Below the pieces are notes generated by a model. The model was given only the letters and a program-made list of their open reading frames with translations, made no database searches and had not been told where the DNA came from. From Acrasis kona (lineage: Eukaryota > Heterolobosea > Eutetramitea > Acrasida > Acrasidae), in contig JAOPGA020001798.1 in assembly GCA_026419775.2 (NCBI GenBank), positions 1-34,246 of the forward strand: a DNA stretch of 34,246 nt. Direction: 5' to 3'. Position numbers and translations under genes: made by a program. Positions 5,699-34,246 of the stretch are shown here, in pieces; position 1 is the stretch's first letter; each line of letters opens with the position of its first letter.

Positions 5699-6777
5699 TC
5701 AGAATGTTGTTAAATCTCTCCTGGAAAAGAAGTGATATTGACCTCCCGGTAAAAGACACTCTATTTATGTGATTACAAAAGAGGAATAAGAGAGACTTAC
5801 AATGTTTGCAGAAAGTCCTTCGATTTATAAAACTCTTGGCTTTGATACAAGTACTTCTTCATGCATTCTTGGAATGTATTGGCGACGTGATCAGAGCTAA
5901 CCTCTACATTTAGTATTACGCTCAAGGCAATTCTGACTCGATCTACAATCTTGACTCGGTCCTCATAGAGTGAACACAAAATATAATGCAGCTTCATATA
6001 AAAGCTCAAGTTATCATCGCTGTCGTTGTCGCCATCAACGGGACATGCATGAACAATTAAATAGTTATCTTGCACAAGCTCCATATTGAAAATTGGCATG
6101 TGAGGTATCCTCTCATACATTGAACATTTATTGAGTGCTAATACAAATTTATGTTGGAACATATTTTCTAAATTTTCTGGAATGACCCCAGCAACTACAG
6201 ACACCAACACAGTATTCTCATGTATTCTTCCGTTCAAATCCTGTTGGACATTTGGAAGCTGTGAAGGCTGTATGCACAATATAATCACGTCGCATCGGCT
6301 GTTAATGACTTGTTTGTTGTCATCAACGACCTTATCAAGTTTCAGTGATGCTATTCTTGGTGGGTCCTTTTTGTCCAGAGTGCTCGGACCAAAATTACAT
6401 AAAGTCGCACCAAGTGTAGTTGTAGGTCGTCTAGTGCATATTACAATATTGTTGGGCTTAAATGGTGTATCCTTGTAGAAAAGTAAAGCTTCAAGAACAC
6501 TTTTACCAACTGACCCACATCCTATAATCCCAATTTTGATCATAACCTCCCTGTTCAGATGTTTACTCTTTATAAAATAAGATTCTCTACTCATCTCTTT
6601 TGTTCGCTCCTGCATCAGGGATTCTTGTATTACTCTTTTTGTTCTAGATACAACCAATACCACAAACAAGCACTGCAAGGATATGATGTCTCTATGCCTT
6701 ACGAATGACTTTTGTGCATTTTCAAGCTCTGGTCCGATAGTATTGGACAAGCAATCATCTAAAAGTCCAAAATCCAT
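5699..6777 (-). CDS. NOXRED1 / pyrroline-5-carboxylate reductase-like Rossmann protein
   Basis: Main exon 6777-5801. It either ends at the TAA at 5797-5799 (326 aa) or, more likely, splices at GTAAGT (5800) to CTTTTCCAG (5721) and ends at 5699 after a few more residues (RDLTTF). The retained-intron stop is part of the donor itself, which favours splicing. After an 80-residue N-terminal extension comes a dinucleotide-binding motif, IGIIGCGSVGKSVLEALL (GxGxxG), then ICTRRP, which suits NADP phosphate binding, and DVIILCIQPSQL and VSVVAGV, as in P5C reductases and NOXRED1-type proteins. The C-terminal half is divergent from the dimerising helical domain of P5CR. A role in proline synthesis is therefore not assured; an NAD(P)-dependent reductase of unknown substrate is the safe call. 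Confidence 0.75.
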
Positions 6778-6810: not shown

Positions 6811-9076
6811 TTAATTACAATGAACATATATGGTGTCCGTTCTTCTCATCACATAAAAAACTGCACTTTCGAAGGGATCGTTCTGTTTCTTAGCATTCTT
6901 CTTATTATTTTTCGAACCTACAATTACAAAGCCCATTCTTAAAAAGAAGGTCAAATTCGTCACATCAGTAACAGTCGTGTAACAAGGATATTGATCCTCG
7001 TTGGCACTTTTGATTACTGGTTGTAACACTTGGTTAGCATATCCTTGGCACCTTTCCGAAGGACTCGTTGCCAGAGCATATAACTTCCAACAGTGGTTTT
7101 CTCCATTCGCATTGCTTTGGCTCATGATTTTATTATAACAGGCTTCTTGCCAGTCCAGAACTCTAAACAACCGCAGGACAGCAGCGGGACCCAACCCAAT
7201 CAAAGTACCTACTGACTTCAACACACGGTTCCGTATTTTTTGTCCCAACACATTATTGTATACATTCTGCCAAAGACAAGTCGCAACCACATGCGATTGA
7301 TTATATCGATCATGAAGAGTAACTACCCACACTCTACCATACTTGATAACAGTAGATAATATCTCCTTCATGATGGCCTCTAATGATTCTAGTTGACCCT
7401 TAGTGAGAGATTTCATCGCACGATTGGCTTGTATGGTTTCAGAAGTGATGGAAACAGTAGCATCCGTAACAACAGGTACAGCAACAGAAGACTGATTGCT
7501 TTCGTTTTTATTTTCATTTTGTTGGTTCAACACAGTCTCATGGTAACGATCTATATCTTGATCAATCCATATTCCCGTAAGTATATAATAGTACATTGGA
7601 TGCTTTTCGTAACTCTGAGCCAACAAGCGAGCCGTTTCGTCCAGTTGATTAGGTCTTATCTCATGCAACAAACGCATACCCATGGTTGACTTTATTCTTT
7701 TTTTGATGCAACTTTCCATATGAAGAACATACCATTCAAGTTGTTTTTTGTAGGACACATTTTGATGAGATTGAGAAGGAGGATTGGACAAGACGACACT
7801 ATTTTTCTTCGAGAGAAGATTCTTAATGGTGAAGCTATTGTTAAATTTTGTTTCTTGTTTTACATTTAATTTATCTCCTAGCCTTCCCTGACACAACGGC
7901 TTCCATATTACTTGGTCATTTTGAGACAACTTGTAGAACCTTTTATCAACGGTCATGATGGTGTGATACAAATCAACACAATCAAGGAACCTTAAAATGT
8001 GCAGCCATATCGAATCAAAATTCTCTTGAAACAACTTGATGGTGTTACAGTTTGTGAATGTAATGTCTCCGCTTTGTTCGGCGTTGCTTTGTAATTTCTT
8101 CAATCTCTTCAAGCACTCACTAGCTGTCGGCCTCTTACTAGGCACTCTCGACACCAACTCCGTCATCATACCAAATAACTCCACATTGTATTCGTGCGAA
8201 AGAATTTCTTCTCTTAATGTGTCGGTTAGTAGGTTCGGATCGGCGTTGAGTTGATTGATTAGATTATAACTCTTGCCGGTCAACATTTGAAGCAGTATGA
8301 TACCTAAACTGAACAGGTCGGTCCTAAAGTCATACGTTTCGTTATTCAACATTTCAGGAGACATGAAGTTGGGTGTGCCGCACATGGTTAACACAAGGGA
8401 ATCTTGTTGCCCTCCATTTTCGTGTGCTCTTATCGTTCCAAAATCACCAATTTTGACAGTGTTGAGTTGTGACAGGAATAAATTGTTGGGTTTAAGGTCA
8501 CGATGTATGAGACCTACATGCGTTAATGTTTAAGCATAAACAGTCGTGCTTACCATGATCGTGTAAAAAGCTTAATCCCTCACAAACATCAATCATGTGC
8601 TTGATAATGATTGATTCTGGCATACATTGAACTCTTGTTCCCTCTTGTGTTTGTGCTGTCAAAGAAGTAGATATAACCGGAGAACTACTTCTCGTCTGCG
8701 AGGACGACCGCTCCCTTCTCGGCGCCCAATATTTTTGTATAGCTGTTTGTAAATCTCCATTGGGACAATACTAGTAGATTATAGTTGGTAAATAAAGTCT
8801 ACTACCTACCTCCATAACAAGACAAACATTCATTGTATGAGCAGAAGGATACTTATGTATAAAAACTCTTTTATATGGAACAATATTTGGGTGAGGGTCC
8901 TTTGATAGTGAAATAAGCCGGTATGCTTCATTTAAAGTTGTATTGGCCTTCTCGGGTGTGTCAATCTCAATACGCTTTATTGCAACGATTTCCTGCGTCT
9001 TCTTATATTGACACTTGAGAACATGGCCCTCACTACCTTTCCCTAGCAGTTGGATGACATAATACTGGTCCATCAT
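6811..9076 (-). CDS. Protein kinase + F-box + GNAT acetyltransferase fusion
   Basis: Exons 9076-8810, 8770-8554 and 8513-6811. The introns are 39 and 40 nt, and the product is 728 aa. Residues 1 to about 300 are a complete Ser/Thr kinase: GKGSEGHV loop, VAIKRI lysine, LNEAYRL helix-C Glu, HRDLKPNN (Asp about 167), GDFG (about 185), FMSPEML in the APE position, and KRPTASECLKRL closing the domain. A Ser/Arg-rich insert sits between the hinge and the C-lobe. Residues about 327-371 are F-box-like (SIWLHILRFLDCVDLY...VIWKPL). Residues about 447-716 are a GNAT domain whose acetyl-CoA motif is LATSPSERCQGYANQVLQPV (about 641-660), with a C-terminal FFLRMGFVIVG strand. Each intron junction falls inside a conserved kinase motif, so all three domains belong to one gene. 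It may link phosphorylation, SCF ubiquitin ligase recruitment and acetylation. Confidence 0.88.
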
Positions 9077-11120: not shown

Positions 11121-11888
11121 ATGGAGATATTCGAACATGTGTACCTCGGGAACAGACACGACGCATCTAACGCCAGTTTACTAAAGCTTCTACGAATTGG
11201 TCATGTCCTGAACGTCACAGACGACCTAAAGAACTACTTCCACAAAATGAACGAGGTTGAACAAAAAGTGGTGAGGAGGATTGCAGGAGACAACGAGACA
11301 GGAAGTGAAACAATCACCCTCAACTCTCAAGAGGATGATGCCTCTATTGTACTTGAGGGCTTAGGTTTGGGGGTTCCATCACGCCACCCTCAGGAGGAGA
11401 TTGGAATAGAATTTGACCAAGAGGATGGACCTTCTGACGTCTTACCAACAAATTTAACATCCCCAGAAAAGAAAATGTCAGACAATTCTTTATCTCAAAT
11501 TAACACCGAGTTGGTTAAATTCGACCGAATTATTGAGTATAAACGCATCAGTATTGTTGACTCGATGGAGCATGATATTAAAAGATTTTTCCCCGAAGGC
11601 ATAGAGTTTATAAGCTCAGCTGTCGCACAAAACAGCAACGTCATTATCCATTGTAGGGAGGGCAGGAGTAGATCCGTATCCTTGCTCATAGCCTATGCAA
11701 TGAATAAACTTGGGTGGTCTCTCAAACAAACATTCGACCACGTGCAAACATTGACCAACAATCACACAAGAATCAATGATGGATTTAAGCGACAACTCAT
11801 GGAGTATGAGATTGAACTAATGATGTCAAGAAGGGCAGTAGCAAATGTAGAGGGTGTGGCCAATATAGACGAGACTGAAGTCTTGTGA
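11121..11888 (+). CDS. Dual-specificity protein phosphatase
   Basis: 255 residues from ATG 11121, where the DSP fold begins (MEIFEHVYLGNRHDAS). Active-site loop: IIHCREGRSRSVSLLIAYAM, matching HCx5R with Cys about 178 and Arg about 184. The general-acid Asp lies in VDSMEHDIKRFF (about 147). Between the LNVTDD strand and this loop is an acidic insertion of roughly 90 residues (NSQEDDAS..., GIEFDQEDGPSD) absent from minimal DSPs; it may hold a docking or regulatory segment. Family role: dephosphorylation of Tyr and Ser/Thr, often on MAP kinases; the substrate here is unknown. The next gene's ATG is only 32 nt past the stop. Confidence 0.88.
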   Translation: MEIFEHVYLGNRHDASNASLLKLLRIGHVLNVTDDLKNYFHKMNEVEQKVVRRIAGDNETGSETITLNSQEDDASIVLEGLGLGVPSRHPQEEIGIEFDQEDGPSDVLPTNLTSPEKKMSDNSLSQINTELVKFDRIIEYKRISIVDSMEHDIKRFFPEGIEFISSAVAQNSNVIIHCREGRSRSVSLLIAYAMNKLGWSLKQTFDHVQTLTNNHTRINDGFKRQLMEYEIELMMSRRAVANVEGVANIDETEVL

Positions 11889-11920
11889 ATACCTTAGAAT
11901 TTTTCCCTCGTAGAAAACGC

Positions 11921-12565
11921 ATGACGAGCTACGTTGAAATCCAAGGGCAAAGTAGTGGAACTGAAGATGGAGATTATGAAATGTATGATGATGATGAAGA
12001 TGACGACGAAGACGACATTGATGATGGGTCATATGGAACTGGCCAAAGGAAGCCAAAGAAGAAGAAAACTTATCTACCTGCATCCGAAATTGCCAATTTA
12101 TTCCCTCAGGTAGACTCTTGCGGAAGGAAGCAAATGACATTATTTGACATGATGAAGAAGAATGTGAAACCAGTTGTTTGTCAACCAGATAAAAACATAA
12201 ACGAAAACGCACCCCCGATTACCGAAGCCGATGGTTCAATAAAAGTTCCTGTGCCGATAGTAGAACATGCATTGTTCCAAGTACAACACGAGTTACAGAA
12301 GGTCGAAGACCCAGAAGCAAAAGAACAAGAACTTTTAAAACAAGTAGAAGACAAAGTGAAGGCATTATGCAAGATCGTGAGTCAAGATAAGGAGAATAAA
12401 AAGACTGTACAGAAGAAGAAGAATGAGGTTAGCAGCAAAATCACCAAAAGTAAATTAATGAGTGACGTTACGAATAAGATACCAAAGATTGCAGTGCCAG
12501 CATCCACAGCGCCCAAAAAGCAGACGTCACTGGCATCATTCTTCTCCGTAAAAAAAAACAAGTAA
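11921..12565 (+). CDS. Acidic/lysine-rich protein with C-terminal PIP box
   Basis: 214 residues from ATG 11921. The N-terminus is strongly acidic (YDDDEDDDEDDIDD), followed by a basic patch (RKPKKKKTY) that could act as a nuclear signal. A coiled-coil-like stretch covers about 130-175. Near the C-terminus, KKQTSLASFFSVKK is a good PCNA-interacting (PIP) box (Q-x-x-L-x-x-F-F with flanking Lys). A second, weaker candidate is RKQMTLFDMMKK near residue 70. PIP boxes bind the DNA sliding clamp and occur in replication and repair proteins. I do not recognise a catalytic domain or a named orthologue. The stop codon overlaps an AATAAA, and the opposite-strand gene's stop is 5 nt beyond. Confidence 0.75.
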   Translation: MTSYVEIQGQSSGTEDGDYEMYDDDEDDDEDDIDDGSYGTGQRKPKKKKTYLPASEIANLFPQVDSCGRKQMTLFDMMKKNVKPVVCQPDKNINENAPPITEADGSIKVPVPIVEHALFQVQHELQKVEDPEAKEQELLKQVEDKVKALCKIVSQDKENKKTVQKKKNEVSSKITKSKLMSDVTNKIPKIAVPASTAPKKQTSLASFFSVKKNK

Positions 12566-13491: not shown

Positions 13492-13619
13492 TAGACTGCA
13501 GATTGATTGTAATCTTAGCACAGGAGATTATCAGTCATTAAAATTGAACTCATTCCGAAACCCTGTTGGTAGACAGTAATAACCGTTGATATCACTCCCT
13601 TTACTTTATTGTCAAAAGA

Positions 13620-14483
13620 ATGAACGTGGGGCCAAGCGCCAAAAAACGAAGGATATGTTCATACTTTTCAGACGATGTGTTGCGATACATTATACCCTTT
13701 ATAGATGAACCTATTACCGTCTGTAATATAGAGGCTACATGTAGAGATTGGAGATCTTGCATGCAAAGTAATGAATGCTGGATGAAAATAGAAAGAGAGA
13801 CATTCAAGACATCAGATCTATCAAACGACCACAAATACAGGTATCTTGAGAGATTACAGTTATTATTCAATGAACGAAAACACATCAAATTATATAATGG
13901 AGAATATTTGTTGGTGTTAAAGTATAGTGACAAAGTACTATCTAAATTTTACAACAACTTCTTCAATGCCTTTCGTCTAACAATTAGATTCTATTTAGGG
14001 CTGGATGAGCTTCAAACACATCACCCAGACTTCAATCTTGGCGAAATGAAGAGATCGCTTCTAACGTCCAAACAAAACTACTTTTTCACAGAATGGGCTT
14101 TTAACGAAGGAAGCAAAGAAAGTGCAGAGGACTTTGTTATTATAGGATACACGCCAGATGGAGCTAAAAAGTCCTTAACTATCAACTACACTCACAGTTT
14201 TAGCGACAACAAAAAAACATTAATTGTTAGTGCGAGTGATTGTAGAGAGGAACTGAAAGACATTATGGACAACACAGTTGACTTTAGTAGGGAGAGAGAT
14301 GAGGTTTGCTTGACCAAACTACGTGACTGCTTGATTGGGTTCAGCAATATTTTTAAATACTGCGGTACGGGCGACATTCATCAGAGAATATTTGCTGCCT
14401 TTATGTTTGTGGTTGATAGTTGTGGGTTGACCATTGAAGACGAAAATAAAAGTAACATTGAACGCTTGTTGAGGCCAGTCTAA
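13620..14483 (+). CDS. F-box protein
   Basis: 287 residues from ATG 13620. The N-terminal segment CSYFSDDVLRYIIPFIDEP, followed by VCNIEATCRDWRSCM and ECWMKIERETF, is an F-box (about residues 13-58). The remainder has no repeats I can recognise (no WD40, LRR or Kelch) and is probably a family-specific substrate-binding region. F-box proteins dock to SKP1 and recruit targets to SCF ubiquitin ligases. It is divergent from the preceding minus-strand gene across 128 nt. Confidence 0.75.
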   Translation: MNVGPSAKKRRICSYFSDDVLRYIIPFIDEPITVCNIEATCRDWRSCMQSNECWMKIERETFKTSDLSNDHKYRYLERLQLLFNERKHIKLYNGEYLLVLKYSDKVLSKFYNNFFNAFRLTIRFYLGLDELQTHHPDFNLGEMKRSLLTSKQNYFFTEWAFNEGSKESAEDFVIIGYTPDGAKKSLTINYTHSFSDNKKTLIVSASDCREELKDIMDNTVDFSRERDEVCLTKLRDCLIGFSNIFKYCGTGDIHQRIFAAFMFVVDSCGLTIEDENKSNIERLLRPV

Positions 14484-20650: not shown

Positions 20651-23600
20651 TTAAACCGTCAATAAATCTTTAATGATGGCCAGTCTTTTCGTGACTTGGT
20701 CAAAAGATGGTCTTTCATACTTATCATCCTGCCAACAATCCTTCATAAGCGAAACATACTCAACTAGTGACTCGCTGACAATTAAACTCTCATCAAACGC
20801 TGGCCTTTCTCCATTCTTTACTTTCTCTGCAATTACAAAAATTGATAAAAACTCATCAGAGTACGCCATCTTCTCTGTAAGCAATTCATACATGACGATA
20901 CCAAAACTATACACATCACAGCTTTGATTGTATGGATGGTTCCTGATGATTTCTGGGGCTATATAACCTGCGGTTCCAACATTTCCAGTCATGTCATAAC
21001 CATTTTTATGGAATTTGCTAATTCCAAAGTCACAGACCTTTGCTCTTGTGATATTTTTATCTACCAAAATGTTACCAAGTTTTAAATCTCTGTGTATTAG
21101 AGGCGGATCAATAGAATGCAAATAAGTCATGCCTGCGGCAACATCTATAAGAAGAGACAGTTTTCTTTGCATGTTTAGATGTACATAACTATTTCTATTT
21201 TTTAATATGATATTTTCAAGAGATTTTCCCTCCATCAACTCGGTTACAATTATATTTTTTTGTTGATTAACACAAATGCCCATAAATTGAACAATATTGA
21301 GGTGGTGCAACGATTTCATAATTCTAACTTCGCTTTCAAATGCGTCAATATCATTGTCATCCTGATTAAATCTTGCTTCCATAACTTTGATTGCCACAGG
21401 AGAATTCAAGTAGCTACCACAAAACACAACACCAAACGCACCTTTAGCAATAACCTGATCAAATGACAAACTATCAAAATCTATTAAATAAGAACGGTTA
21501 ATAGCTTCAAGCTCTACATTTTTGGTTAACAGTTCTTCCTCAAGGAGAGATCATCTTTTTATTTAATTTGTGTTGATTATAAAGCCTTCTTATTAGTTTA
21601 AATATAGGCCTCGAAAGTATTATCGCTATTAAAAGAAACAAAGCAATTAATAAAGGATAAACTATATAACCAAAATAAATATTGCAATTATCACCTATGT
21701 ATCCCTTATAACATAAACATTGGTAATTGACACAAGAGCCATGACCATTACATACATTTGGATCTTTAGATAATATGTTGTTACATATTGTTTCATCACA
21801 TTGAGCACCATATAAATTTTCATTACATTGACAAATATCATTATCAATACATCTGCCATTTGATGAACACACTTTATAGTCAGTTTCTTTAAAGCCAAAG
21901 CATGATGCTATACATGTACCTTGAATACTTGTGTAATTTTGATTATTACAAATACAGTTATTAAATGAAACACAAATGCCTCTTCCATTACATGTAGATA
22001 TATTAGCATAATCAATTTGAGCACAAGAATATCTTTCACACTCTTCTCCATAATAACCAACACTACAATTCATTGAAAGGAATGTGGTATAAGTACCTGC
22101 ATATAATGATATTATTGATTTGTTTATAGGCGCAGTTATACTAGGTATTAAAACTTTAGACTCTATTGCAATATTGTTTCCAAATGTATTATAGTTATTA
22201 CTGCCATAAAAATACAAATTATTTTGATCATTTAATGCTGCTATGTGAGTATAACCTATTGATAAAGTTTTAAATTTAATATTATTTATACTTATTTGTA
22301 TTGGTTTAGTTAATGCTTTTATAAAGAATCGATTAAAGAAAGCTCCCCAAAAATACACAATGCCATCTGTGGAAATTACTGCTGAAACAAACTCATTACA
22401 AAAAATAGATTTGATTTTTTTTTGAAATGGAACAAAGACAATTTCATTAATGACAGATATATTTCCAATACCAAGTGAACCATAGCTATTATCACCATAC
22501 GTATAAACAGTATTATTAGCAGTTAATAATAAAATATGATTACGACCTACAGCAACATCAATAATCTTTTCATTTTTTATATTCATAATTTTGTTTTTAA
22601 ACATTATAGATCCATTATTAAACAAAAAACAATGATGAAGGGGAATATGACAATACATTTGTGAAATTTCAAAATTTAAAAAGCTGACGGTTTTGTTTAA
22701 ATATATATCTAAAACTACTCTATTTTGAAATAAAATTAATGGATAACAACATTTTTTAATTATATTAGATGTTTGATATACAATATCTTGGTTTCTAATT
22801 ATTTGGTTATTTGTTATAAATTGTATACTATTTGTATTTATATTTATAATTTGCATAATATTTTCTAAGTTATTTAAAAATTTAAAATTTCTTAATTGAT
22901 TAACATAAAAATAACCGTCATTCTTTTTTATAATAATTACTCGATCAGTATTATCATTAAATCTGTGAGAATATAAACTTCCAATTGTTTTAGTAACATT
23001 TGTTTCAATTTGAAAATATTCATATTTAAATTCAAAATTAACCAAATTAGTAAATTTATATCCAATTAAAATTCCATTATTTAATGTCATATGTACTGTA
23101 TTTGCTATAATTGTAACATCAATTACATTTTTTTGTAAAATATTCGTCTTAATAGTATTATTTTGTATATTTTCAATAAAATATAAATCTCTTTCTATTG
23201 ACTTTACAAATATAACCTCGTTTCCATAATCCATTAAATAAATATCATTTATTAAAAATGTAGTTAATAATATTTCAACTCTTGTTTCTTTTAAAATATA
23301 TAAAGATCCATTATTTACAAGAATAAATAATATTGGCTCAATAAACAAATTATTTGATTCATACCACATTATAGTAACAATCTCCATATTTTTAAATTCA
23401 TATAATAAACACAGGTTTGAAGAATTACATGTTCTATTTTGATATAATCTAAAAATATAAATTTATAATAAATTAAAATGTTACTTACATAATGTCAGGC
23501 CCCCAACCATATAACATTGTTTTGTTAGAAACAGCAAATATTACTTTTTGATTACTTGTTGCGACAGATGTAACATTTGACAATTTAAATTCAACTGCAT

Positions 23601-24067
23601 ATTCTGAAGGCTTCTCAAACAATCCAACCGCTCCTTTACCCCACAAATACAACTCTCCGTTGTTTGTTATAGCGGCAACGGTCTCTCGAATGTTGTACTG
23701 GGCTAAATGTATAAACATGGGTGGCGGAAGCCAAAATTGAGCATGAACAACCCTGAATAAGTCTTCTGCACCAGCAGTAACAACTCCAAATATTCCGTTA
23801 CCCTAAAAATTTGTGAGTTTTATTTTTTTGTCCGCTTACCAACTGACCGACGTCGTTATCAATCCCTTGACTGTATATCGCTCCATCTTCCGTTAATATA
23901 AATCTATTGAAAGAATTTTCGGCAATAGATTTGATTTCCTGAGCACTTTCGAATTCATATCTTTCGAACTTTCTTTCGAAAGGGAATAGGCCTGCTCCGT
24001 AATTGAATGTCTTGCAGTTGATGTAGTGCAAGATGAGCACCAAGAAGCAGATTGTGATGTTTGACAT
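20651..24067 (-). CDS. RCC1-repeat/EGF receptor with TKL kinase, split by a +1 frameshift
   Basis: Exons 24067-23840, 23802-23489 and 23448-21540. The introns are 37 and 40 nt. A signal peptide (MSNITICFLVLILHYINC) is followed by RCC1-like propeller repeats (GELYLWGKGAVG, TVYTYGDNSYGSLGIG, NLYFYGSNNYN). About four EGF-like units (CNGHGSC...CLCYKGYIGDNC) and one TM segment (VYPLLIALFLLIAIIL) follow. The receptor frame stops at TGA 21542-21540, 816 aa. The kinase frame begins at once at 21541 in +1 and runs to 20651 (296 aa): KGAFGVVF, VAIKVM, HRDLKLGN, CDFGISK, APEII. It has no Met before the kinase core, so it is not a stand-alone gene. No GT lies between the TM segment and the junction, so an intron does not explain it. 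Either a sequence/assembly error, a recent disabling mutation, or recoding at CCT-TGA. Confidence 0.8.
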
Positions 24068-25767: not shown

Positions 25768-25850
25768 TGGACGAGTCCGGAATTGAACCGGAGACTTCTT
25801 GCATGCTAAGCAAGCACTCTTTGTCGAAAAACCAACTGAGTTACACGCCC
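25768..25850 (-). tRNA. trnA-AGC: tRNA-Ala (AGC) with an enlarged D-loop
   Basis: 83 nt. Anticodon arm CTTGC-TTAGCAT-GCAAG gives anticodon AGC. The T arm is CCGG-TTCAATT-CCGG (B box GGTTCAATTCC). Acceptor 5' GGGCGTG pairs with 3' CTCGTCC and discriminator A, keeping the G3:U70 wobble that specifies alanine; pair 6:67 is a T-T mismatch. The D arm is ACTC/GAGT, but its loop is about 18 nt instead of about 8 because of an extra 10 nt (near TTTTCGACAA) after the conserved GG. A TTTT pol III terminator follows directly. It is either a tRNA with a non-canonical D-loop intron or a decaying copy. Confidence 0.85.
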
Positions 25851-29294: not shown

Positions 29295-29716
29295 AACTTG
29301 CAGTATTAATTGGTTCAAAATTTGAACAATTCAGATCTCTTCGAAGATAGTTACTATAAAATCCTTGATAATTTGACAAGCGCTACTGGTAATACTGCTA
29401 TGCATCCTCAGTTTCCAACTCTGAATCTGCCAAGCTTTTCGGAGTAACAGCACTAAAATTTGACTTTTATTGTAAACATGGGTAAATCAAAACCGTCACG
29501 GACAAAAGCCAATCAAAAATATTTTTAAAGTTTGCCCCACAAGGTGATTTGATTTGTTTTCGTAAAGCGTGAAGGAGGCTTTGCTTGCCTAAAAAGCGTA
29601 AATGGGCCCTCAATTCCAAAACAGTACACTTTATTGCGTTCCTTTCAGCATTCGCCGCGCTGTAATTATTAAATCTGATAGAAGCTTAAATTGTACAAAA
29701 TCGAGTTCAACGGCTA
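29295..29716. other. Intergenic region with a short palindrome
   Basis: About 420 nt without a gene. GTTCAAA-A-TTTGAAC at 29313-29327 is a perfect 7-bp inverted repeat about 20 nt past the DH-PH stop. No tRNA or other RNA gene was recognised. Confidence 0.4.
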
Positions 29717-32700
29717 ATGTATACCATAGCGGCGTTACTGCTTGTGTTCTTGATAACAGGCGGGGTTAACAGCCAATGTTTTCCTGCACTCCCGACTCCG
29801 TTAGTCAGCTACTTACTAAACGAGACCAGCGGTAATACCATCACCGACTACAGAAATGGACAGAACGCAACGATCGTTGGAAATCCTGCTGTATGGAGCC
29901 CATTAGCTCCACCAGGCTACGTCGCATCCATCCTGCTAAATGGTGATGGGTCATTGTTTCGTTTACCTCTCAATGGCTTCAACCCACAACAATCCTACTC
30001 AATTGTATCATGGATTCGCATCACCAACACGAACGCACAAAGTACCATACTATACATTCACGACGCGGTCTTTTTCTTCCAGTATCATACTACAGAAAAA
30101 AACTTTCAGTTGTGTACAACAAAATCTAATTACTATAGAGCAAGATCTCAATTCGGCCCTCCTGTAGTCAACACTTGGTACCAAATCACCGGAGTGTTCG
30201 ACAGGTCCACAAGCTCAATTGCATTCTACGTGAACGGAGCATTACAACAAAACGTAACAGCAACAGCCTCAGATGTGCCCGCCTACAATTATTTCATTTT
30301 CGGAGCCATCGAAGCCGCACCTGGTACGCCAAATGACAGGACCCAAGGCAACTTAGGTCCCGTACTAGTATACCAAACTGCGTTCACAAGTACTCAAGCA
30401 AGAGATGCGTATTCGTTATCGTTGCTACCTTGCTCCAATAATGGAGTGTGTATGGGCAATGGAACATGTAATTGTTATCCAGGATATTTCGGACCTACTT
30501 GTTCATATTATAATTGTTCTGGAACATTGATGATAGATCCTAATGTATGCAGTGCAAGAGGATTGTGTAACGCAAGTAACAGCTGTAATTGTAATCCAGG
30601 TTATTCAGGAGCCAACTGCGAAAATTATTATTGTAATAACATTCATTACTCCAATCAATATACATGTTCAGGAGCAGGCACCTGCACCGCACCCAACACT
30701 TGCGTTTGCAATGCCGGCATTGACGGCAAATACTGCGAAAGACCAAAATGTCTAACCTCACCCCTACCAACCCCAGTCGTCAGATATCTACTAAGCGAAG
30801 GAAGCGGAAACACGATTTACGACAGAACAAACGGTTTTAATTCCACCATCATCGGTAATAATGCTGTGTGGAGTAATTCTTCTCCACCAGGATACTATGG
30901 ATCTTTGGTGTTCAACGGAGATGGTTCTTTTTTTAGAATTTCACAAAACGGATTCGACATTCGACAGTCGTTCACGATTGTAACTTGGTTAAAGATTACC
31001 GATTTGAACGCTCAAAGCACTGTATTGTATTTGGAAGACTATGCCTTGTTTTTCCAGTACCACGCTGGAGCTAAGAATTTACAATTTGTTTTGAATAAGG
31101 CTACTAACAGGGCTGTGTCTCAATACGTCACTCCTGCTGCTCAACAGTGGTATCAAATGACTGCAGTATTTGATAAAGGCAATTCTACTGCCTATCTATA
31201 TGTAAACGGAGTTTTGCAACATAACTTGACTGCCGTATCTAACGATACATCGAAGTTCTCCTACTTTACTTTTGGAGCAGCACAAAACGCTGCAGGAACT
31301 ATTTTTGATAAATATGTTGGTTTGTTGGGCCCATTGACAGTTTACCAGAGCGCATTCACTGCTGCGCAAGCAAGTAGTGCTTATTCTCTTTCGATGAATT
31401 CTTGTTCTAATAATGGCGTCTGTAATGGCGACGGCACTTGTACATGTAATACTGGTTATTCAGGAACTACCTGCTCTTACTTCACTTGTAATAATATAAC
31501 AATGTCGAATTCATCCGTATGTAGTGGTGCGGGTTACTGTATCTCCTCCAACAATTGTAATTGTAATTCAGGCTACAGCGGTAGCAATTGTGAAATTTTT
31601 TATTGTTTTGGTGTGCTTAGTTCAAACAGTTCAGTGTGTTCGGGATCAGGTACTTGTGTTTCTTCAAATGTTTGTTCATGTTACGGCATGAGCACTGGTA
31701 CAAATTGTGAGTCTTATAAATGTAATGCGGCAACACCAAGCCCTCTGGCTAGATATTCTTTAGATGAAGGCGCTGGAAACGTTATCATGGACAGTTTGAA
31801 TAAAAATAACTCAACCATGCTAAACGGAAATATTGTATGGAGTTTATTAGCACCACCTGGTTACACTAGGTCCATAGCTCTTAATGGAAGTGGTTCCTAC
31901 TTTAGATTACCTTTTAATGGGTTCAATCCACAAAAATCTTACACCATTATTACATGGGTGCGCATAACTAACTTGAACGCACAAAGCACCATATTGTATA
32001 TAAATGATGCTATCTTCTATCTCCAGTATCATGCAGGCGAAAAGAATTTCCAGTTGTGTACTACGAAGACCTATTATTATAGGGCTAGATCACAATTTGG
32101 ACCTCCTCTTGCTAATATTTGGTACCAAATCACTGGAACATTTGATGGTGTCGCTAATACTACCTCCTTGTACGTCAACGGAGTGTTGCAACAAACCATT
32201 AACGCGACTGCTGCTGAAGTTCCACTTTCTAATTATTTCACGTTTGGAGCCATGGAGGCCACCGCTGGTGATGTCTTTGATAGGACAGTTGGTAATTTGG
32301 GATCAATTCAAGTCCATCAAACCGCCTTCACCCCCTATCAAGCAAAGATGGCCTATTCCTTCTCTCTCAATACTTGTTCTGGAAATGGTGTGTGTGGTGG
32401 CGACGGAAAATGTAATTGCAGCGCAGGATACTCAGGTTCCACTTGTTCGTTCTACTCTTGTTATGGTGTATTGATGACAAACACTTCTGTATGTAACGGC
32501 AGGGGTATATGTAACGCATCCAATTCTTGTTTATGTAGTGGAGATTCTTTCGGAAGCAATTGTGAATTTTTCTATTGTAATAAAGTCCTCAGCACGAACC
32601 AATCGGTTTGCTCTGGACAAGGCATATGTTCTGCTCCTAATACTTGTGTGTGTAATTCGGCATGGACAGGTTCCAATTGTGAAATTGCAAGGTGCTTACC

Positions 32701-34246
32701 AAACTTGCCAATTCCCGTTACAAGATATTTGTTAAATGAAGGATCAGGAAATACTATTTATGATGTCATCAACGGTCAAAATTCAACTTTGATCGGAAAT
32801 CCAGTCACTTGGAGCGCATTGTCTCCACCTGGCTACAGCGGGTCGGTCCTACTTTCTGGCAATTCAGCTTACTTTAGATTACCAATAGGCGCATTCAATC
32901 CTCAGCAATCTTTTACAATCGTCACATGGTTCCGAATGAATGACGTTACCAATTACAATACTGTATTATATCTACATGATGAAATTTTTTACTTCCAATA
33001 TAATTCCTTTCAGGGAAATTTACAATTGTGCTTTACAAAAAATTATTACAGAGCAAAATCAAATATTGGGTCGCCAGTCGCCTATAATTGGTATCAAATG
33101 ACCGGCGTGTATGATGGAAGCGTAGGTGCGCTTATGTTTTATGTCAACGGTGTGTTACAACAAAACGTTTCGGCGCCTGTCCCACCTTCATCAGGTCCGG
33201 CTGTTAACTACCTTACATATGGAGCAGTCGAAAAGGGCACTAGCATCGATGATAAAGTGGTTGGTAATTTGGGACCAATATCAGTGTATCAAACTGCCTT
33301 CACTAGCAGTCAAGTGCAAGATGCCTTCTCCTTATCCATTCTACCATGCTCTGGTAATGGACAGTGTCAGAGCAATGGTCAATGTAGTTGTAATAATGGA
33401 TACACCGGTACAAGTTGTTCTTATTACAATTGTTTTGGTGTAGCCATGACCAGCAACAGTGTATGCAGTGGAAGAGGTATATGCAACAGCAGCGACTCTT
33501 GTAGTTGTTCGCCTAAATATTTTGGACCCAATTGTGAGAAATTTAATTGTTATGGCACTTTGTATAATTCAAGCAGCGTATGCAGCGGAAACGGTGCTTG
33601 TTCAAATGTAGATAATTGTGTTTGTAGAGCTGGATATTATGGGCAGCAGTGCGAAGCATGGAATTGTTATGGAGTAGTGTTCAATAGTACTAGTGTATGT
33701 AGTGGTAATGGATCTTGTCAGGGACCTGATCAATGTGTTTGCAGAGCATCCTACTATGGTAATCAGTGTCAGAATGCTTCAACACCTACCCCCACACCCA
33801 CTCCTACTCCTACTCCCACACCAACACCAACACCTACCCCCACACGAACACCAACGCCCACACCTACTCCTACACCTACTCCTACTCCCACACCTACTCC
33901 TACCCCCACACCTACTCCAACACCAACACCTACTCCCACACCCACTCCAACACCTACTCCTACACCTACTCCTACACCCACTCCAACACCTACTCCAACA
34001 CCTACTCCCACACCTACTCCCACACGAACACCAACGTCCACACCTACTCCAACACCTACTCCCACACCTACACCTACTCCTACTCCAACACCCACCCCAA
34101 CACCTACTCCAACGCCCACCCCAACACCTACTCCCACACCTACGCCCACTCCAACGCCCACTCCAACGCCCACACCTACTCCTACACCTACTCCAACACC
34201 CACTCCAACACCCACTCCAACACCTACTCCCACACCTACACCCACT
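29717..34246 (+). CDS. Giant secreted/surface protein: four LamG + EGF modules and a Pro-Thr stalk (3' partial)
   Basis: The frame is open from ATG 29717 to the window end (1510 codons, no stop, no intron). A signal peptide ([20 protein letters not shown]) is followed by four tandem modules of about 970 nt. Each has a LamG/concanavalin-like jelly roll of about 205 residues ([10 protein letters not shown] start, then [44 protein letters not shown]) and three EGF-like units (CSNNGVC...[12 protein letters not shown]). The module-start Tyr codons are at 29809, 30785, 31754 and 32726. The fourth module has four EGF units and then a run of Pro-Thr repeats from 33783 that leaves the window. Many N-glycosylation sequons are present, and the stalk is likely O-glycosylated. 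Predicted role: adhesion or recognition at the surface; a TM anchor or kinase may lie beyond the window. Confidence 0.9.
33783..34246 (+). repeat. Pro-Thr coding minisatellite
   Basis: A dense array of CCNACN hexamers encodes (PT)n within the preceding gene. A longer-order repeat is visible: an Arg interruption (CACACGAACACCAACG) occurs at 33840 and 34020, 180 nt apart, so the array probably grew by duplication of a 180-nt block. The minus strand is G-rich (GGTGTGGG type). Confidence 0.85.

Follow-up and report, generated by a model that had tools for sequence, protein, structure and literature searches.

F-box proteins of the FBXW and FBXL types bear a C-terminal recognition module, composed of WD40 domains or leucine-rich repeats (LRR), and the receptors of SKP1-cullin 1-F-box (SCF) ubiquitin ligases usually depend on a separate kinase to mark their substrate. 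We describe here a gene of the soil amoeba Acrasis kona (Heterolobosea) that would depart from this plan. It lies on the minus strand, from 9076 or 9073 to 6811, of a window comprising all 34,246 nucleotides of contig JAOPGA020001798.1 (GenBank assembly GCA_026419775.2), and is predicted to join a protein kinase, a divergent F-box and a divergent, acetyltransferase-like GNAT domain in a single chain. As in FBXW and FBXL proteins, the F-box is followed by a C-terminal module, and the A. kona genome has SKP1-like and cullin genes; the protein differs from them in its N-terminal kinase, in a GNAT domain replacing WD40 or LRR, and in an F-box that starts without the Leu-Pro (LP) pair, which is usual, if not universal, at that position. 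By modelled fold the nearest GNATs are puromycin N-acetyltransferase (PAC) and its relatives (PDB 7k09, 7k0a and 2qec), from which the A. kona domain is set apart by an additional Asn/Gln-rich insert and by Phe and Thr where PAC has Tyr171 and Glu161. The account we tentatively favor, at somewhat short of an even chance, is that of an SCF-type substrate receptor with a built-in kinase, in which the PAC-like GNAT part serves as a binder.

Gene structure and the single chain

The coding sequence is assembled from three exons, all on the minus strand. Exon 1 (8810-9076) encodes the kinase N-lobe, with the glycine loop GKGSEG, Lys33 of VAIK, and Glu49 of helix C within NEAYRL; exon 2 (8554-8770) supplies the hinge, a Ser/Thr-rich insert and helix E; and exon 3 (6811-8513) carries the kinase C-lobe (HRDLKPNN, DFG, SPE), the F-box, the GNAT domain and the stop codon in a single frame. 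Intron 1 (8771-8809, 39 bases) follows LVME in the kinase hinge, and intron 2 (8514-8553, 40 bases) lies just 5' of LIHRD. Both have GT-AG boundaries, agree with the deposited A. kona protein P0001, and fit the range of 9-95 bp reported for introns of this species in excerpts of the genome paper (PMC11589745), which also state that gene prediction drew on protein and transcriptome data. The words F-box and acetyltransferase are both missing from the main text of that paper. Exon 3 lies within one open frame of 572 codons, about 20 codons separate the end of the kinase from the F-box, and there are zero unread bases between 6811 and 9076. Splicing from the second of two start codons, the ATG at 9073 (9073-8810, 8770-8554 and 8513-6811), yields 727 residues; the deposited model begins at the ATG at 9076, and its 728-residue product is the same protein with one further N-terminal Met. 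The deposited record is named as a Nek kinase, and its precomputed Pfam domains comprise the kinase only. An earlier note on this DNA had placed the three domains on one chain in the order kinase, F-box, GNAT. Its coordinates, intron positions and uninterrupted last exon were right, the spliced protein matching the deposited one, and the gene structure confirms, as read from the DNA, that one gene encodes all three in one protein, exon 3 being common to C-lobe, F-box and GNAT. On the same strand, an NADP/F420-type oxidoreductase gene occupies 5797-6777; its likely ATG falls about 33 bases past the stop codon of the kinase gene, and the two may share a transcript.

The kinase domain matches the Pkinase profile at residues 5-296 of the spliced protein (Pfam; E 4e-49, 167.8 bits against a cut-off of 31.7), and the glycine loop, Lys33, Glu49, HRD (164-166), DFG (184-186) and an APE-like SPE (212-214) are all found. 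The kinase is thus complete, as had been proposed, and from this full set of motifs it should be active, apparently as a Ser/Thr kinase. Sequence matches in the PDB were led by SPAK/OSR1 (E 1.4e-28), with NEK1 behind (E 3.5e-25), then PKN1, PERK and GCN2; with exon 3 alone as query, PKR came first. A canonical Ser/Thr kinase core is common to this domain and the NEK kinases for which the record is named, but the better match is to SPAK/OSR1 rather than NEK1, and membership in the NEK family is not settled.

The predicted F-box spans 7888-8040 (residues 319-369). It was located with an Acrasis F-box hidden Markov model built from 29 distinct F-boxes (30 of the 150 places in our genome scan were taken and one duplicate was dropped), which scored 27.4 bits; shuffling residues 305-727 5000 times gave 11.5 bits at most, and the reversed protein scored 1.3, placing the F-box above chance. 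SKP1 family members occur at 2 places in the genome and cullin matches at 16, of which 13 exceed the cut-off and some represent pieces of one gene. Binding to SKP1 and a role in a ubiquitin ligase are predictions from domain content. Another divergent F-box protein is encoded in the window at 13590-14483 on the plus strand (25.8 bits with the Acrasis profile; 16.9 bits with Pfam, under the cut-off).

The GNAT domain and its catalytic positions

The GNAT region is C-terminal (6814-7686, residues 437-727), the Asn/Gln-rich insert lying near residues 485-525. Pfam Acetyltransf_1 scores 19.1 bits on the whole protein (E 0.0016, under the cut-off of 20.7) and 22.6 bits, over that cut-off, in the six-frame genome scan. 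In the chance controls the GNAT region scores 21.4 bits, the best of 5000 shuffles 10.1 and the reversed sequence -0.4. The general GNAT P-loop, which contacts the acetyl-CoA pyrophosphate, has the form Q/R-x-x-G-x-G/A, and alignments find it kept as R648-C-Q-G-Y-A653 (7036-7053), bearing out the good acetyl-CoA motif A of the earlier note. Examples of such P-loops appear in excerpts of a GNAT review (PMC4964394). The modelled structure has a GNAT fold, nearest to that of PAC.

What the analysis newly brings out is the substitution of both PAC catalytic positions. F684 (6943-6945) aligns with the PAC general acid Tyr171, and T674 (6973-6975) with PAC Glu161; all 50 homologs in the alignment carry Tyr at the first of these positions and Glu at the second. 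(Counted along the PDB chain, the PAC residues have numbers two higher than the published Y171 and E161: the aligned stretch contains a single Tyr, at 173, and LETS supplies a Glu at 163.) The protein retains the conserved Asn680 as well as the GF motif. Excerpts of the PAC study describe Y171 as very likely to be the general acid, and E161 as a residue that binds puromycin and could be the base; loss of Y171 cuts activity strongly, and a value of 3.6%, by context a relative activity, is given for Y171F (PMC7933286). With the P-loop kept and Tyr and Glu replaced, binding of acetyl-CoA is plausible and efficient transfer doubtful; because, according to the review excerpts (PMC4964394), there are GNATs that lack a Tyr acid, some transfer may nonetheless occur. 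The two substitutions make a binding or sensing module more likely than an enzyme completing a three-step reaction. The proposal that one substrate is phosphorylated, acetylated and ubiquitinated in sequence is accordingly not supported, and nothing was found here to favor the companion possibility that acetylation steers SCF targeting.

A second kinase-F-box gene and the search for relatives

A second A. kona gene of related plan was found on contig C530 (L070:835-2958, minus strand), the gene described above being on contig C940 of the same genome. It encodes a kinase (E 3e-36; N-lobe coding was recognized by eye just upstream), then an F-box (27.5 bits, over the cut-off), and finally a propeller of WD40 type, for which a CDC20-type model gives E 2e-17, although no propeller model reaches its own cut-off. 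The two have in common a complete-looking kinase followed by an F-box in one chain, and are 23% identical over 260 aligned columns of kinase and F-box; they differ in that the C530 gene ends in the propeller where the C940 gene has its GNAT. In the C530 product, a kinase appears fused to a receptor of the phosphodegron-reading kind. By analogy, this arrangement suggests that the GNAT stands in the substrate-receptor position. Each gene has kinases scoring better than the other: a search from C940 exon 3 placed the C530 kinase 13th of 75, and the converse search placed the C940 kinase 54th of 135. The pair may therefore be ancient relatives or independent fusions.

Among the places listed, these are the only two genes that pair a kinase with an F-box within 2.5 kb on one strand, and only the C940 gene pairs a GNAT with either. 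The comparison covered 184 F-box places (all 150 of the genome scan and 34 further ones judged by eye), all 53 GNAT places of the scan, and 165 kinase places (123 of 130 profile-scan rows and 42 picked by eye from similarity searches). The 7 unused kinase rows are second pieces on contigs already included; at least two other kinase rows were left out (contigs C368 and C727, neither of which is in the F-box or GNAT lists), and the kinase list is incomplete, 123 of 531 candidates having been scored.

A search with the F-box/GNAT portion (residues 312-727), of a kind that reaches only proteins sharing exact short words with the query, returned just the protein itself among 2802 candidates at E 0.1, and a single-sequence homolog search with the GNAT region (291 residues) found no match at E 10 or below among 513 candidates. 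Within the A. kona genome, protein search for paralogs of the GNAT found only itself (2 candidates scored), and a phmmer comparison with open reading frames (ORFs) from 30 of its 53 GNAT places yielded no match below E 0.28. Five stretches fitting the pattern were seen in viral contigs, none confirmed as a related locus, and NCBIfam gave one unrelated match to the GNAT region (E 0.45). A word search of open-access literature (titles and the starts of abstracts, most subscription papers lying outside it) recovered no kinase-F-box or F-box-GNAT fusion. The earlier remark that no standard family has this domain order agrees with both the homolog and the literature searches, and the kinase-F-box-GNAT fusion is so far found, by sequence, only in A. 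kona.

A putative receptor with its own kinase, and alternatives

In the receptor account favored above, the F-box would attach the protein to SKP1-cullin 1, and the GNAT, in the C-terminal slot where F-box proteins bear their substrate-binding module, would mainly bind or sense a protein, an amine or acetyl-CoA rather than act as an efficient acetyltransferase. The kinase would then mark the held partner, as putative substrate, or its own chain, for ubiquitination. A more specific form, in which the GNAT fold of such a single-chain ubiquitin-ligase receptor reads acetyl-CoA or an amine and so gates the tethered kinase and the SCF, we regard as unlikely.

Several observations weigh against the receptor account. 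The F-box falls under the Pfam F-box-like cut-off of 24.3 both in the whole protein (residues 328-369, 17.3 bits, E 0.004) and in the six-frame genome scan (22.3 bits; E 0.004-0.005 across the two), and it lacks the LP start, which is present in 13 of the 29 F-boxes that built the Acrasis model. In NCBIfam no F-box or GNAT family was matched, the whole protein hitting only kinase-containing families, all far under their cut-offs. The earlier identification of the two domains nonetheless holds: both are under the Pfam cut-offs in the whole protein, but both score well above shuffles, and the GNAT passes its cut-off in the genome scan. The fold, too, is partly imposed, the model having been built on an alignment of GNATs; a prediction by AlphaFold without alignment, for the GNAT fragment 6814-7560, gave a predicted local distance difference test score (pLDDT) of 36 and was discarded. 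PAC-type proteins are the only GNATs among four PDB sequence matches to the region, and weak ones (E 0.028 and 0.62); TARBP2, at E 0.003 (query 136-218), outranks PAC at E 0.028 (query 198-257) with an overlap of 21 residues, and was taken as a chance match given that no double-stranded RNA-binding family is among the Pfam matches. Among the matches listed from plasmid tblastn, one is under E 0.01 and the rest lie between E 0.2 and 4. The general acid is Tyr in 62% of characterized GNATs, as excerpted from the review (PMC4964394), and its absence is therefore no proof of inactivity. Finally, no ortholog was found, and as the C940 kinase ranks only 54th of 135 with the C530 query, the fusions may be independent, making the argument from position one of analogy only.

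Of the alternatives, the one that fares best, still unlikely in our estimation, is a metabolite-gated kinase, its GNAT binding acetyl-CoA or an amine to switch the kinase, and its F-box serving as a plain protein-binding motif with no ubiquitin ligation. A P-loop kept though the catalytic residues are replaced, and a divergent F-box without LP, speak for such a protein; the clear score with the Acrasis profile and the SKP1-like and cullin genes of the genome speak against it. Slightly less probable is a young fusion that has little selected function or none, and whose GNAT part is decaying. It would account for a homolog search that recovers A. kona alone, for two replaced catalytic positions, and for the lack of a close GNAT relative among the 30 of 53 places compared, but would leave unexplained why a 572-codon frame is open and the P-loop, Asn680 and GF motif are kept. 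We consider improbable the scheme of the earlier note, with all three domains active on one substrate in turn: a complete kinase, an F-box above chance and an intact P-loop on a single chain speak for it, whereas F684 and T674, in place of the general acid and conserved Glu, speak against it, as does the strong fall in PAC activity when Y171 is lost, with 3.6% given for Y171F (PMC7933286, excerpts). That adjacent kinase and F-box-GNAT genes were wrongly joined is very improbable, for although the next gene on the strand begins so close past the stop, the C-lobe, F-box and GNAT share one unbroken frame with about 20 codons between the first two, and the deposited model agrees.

Other features of the window

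On the minus strand at 20651-23462, an RCC1/EGF-like ORF is followed by an overlapping kinase ORF in another frame, perhaps as parts of a single receptor kinase gene. The GC content at 22001-24000 is 0.257, as against 0.345 and 0.381 in the adjoining 2 kb stretches. Rfam detects a tRNA at 25768-25850 (minus strand, 51.8 bits) that ARAGORN, run with the bacterial code, missed; its 83 bases, compared with 71 positions in the model, may mean an intron or a long arm. An ORF at 11879-12565 (plus strand) includes two stretches, QMTLFDMM and QTSLASFF, which resemble PCNA-binding PIP boxes and are candidates for them. From 29690 to 34246, also on the plus strand, a long ORF has repeated sections with many EGF-like Cys motifs (domain names assigned by eye) and Thr-Pro repeats at the contig end.

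Implications

With two kinase-F-box genes in one amoeba, ending in different C-terminal modules, the coupling of a kinase to a receptor would become open to direct test. An F-box protein that includes a GNAT fold whose catalytic residues are replaced would also link the sensing of a metabolite to the turnover of proteins. Should the less likely, metabolite-gated form of the receptor account be true, this gene and that on C530 would together define F-box receptors able to write, by their own kinase, the phosphodegron in whose destruction they take part.
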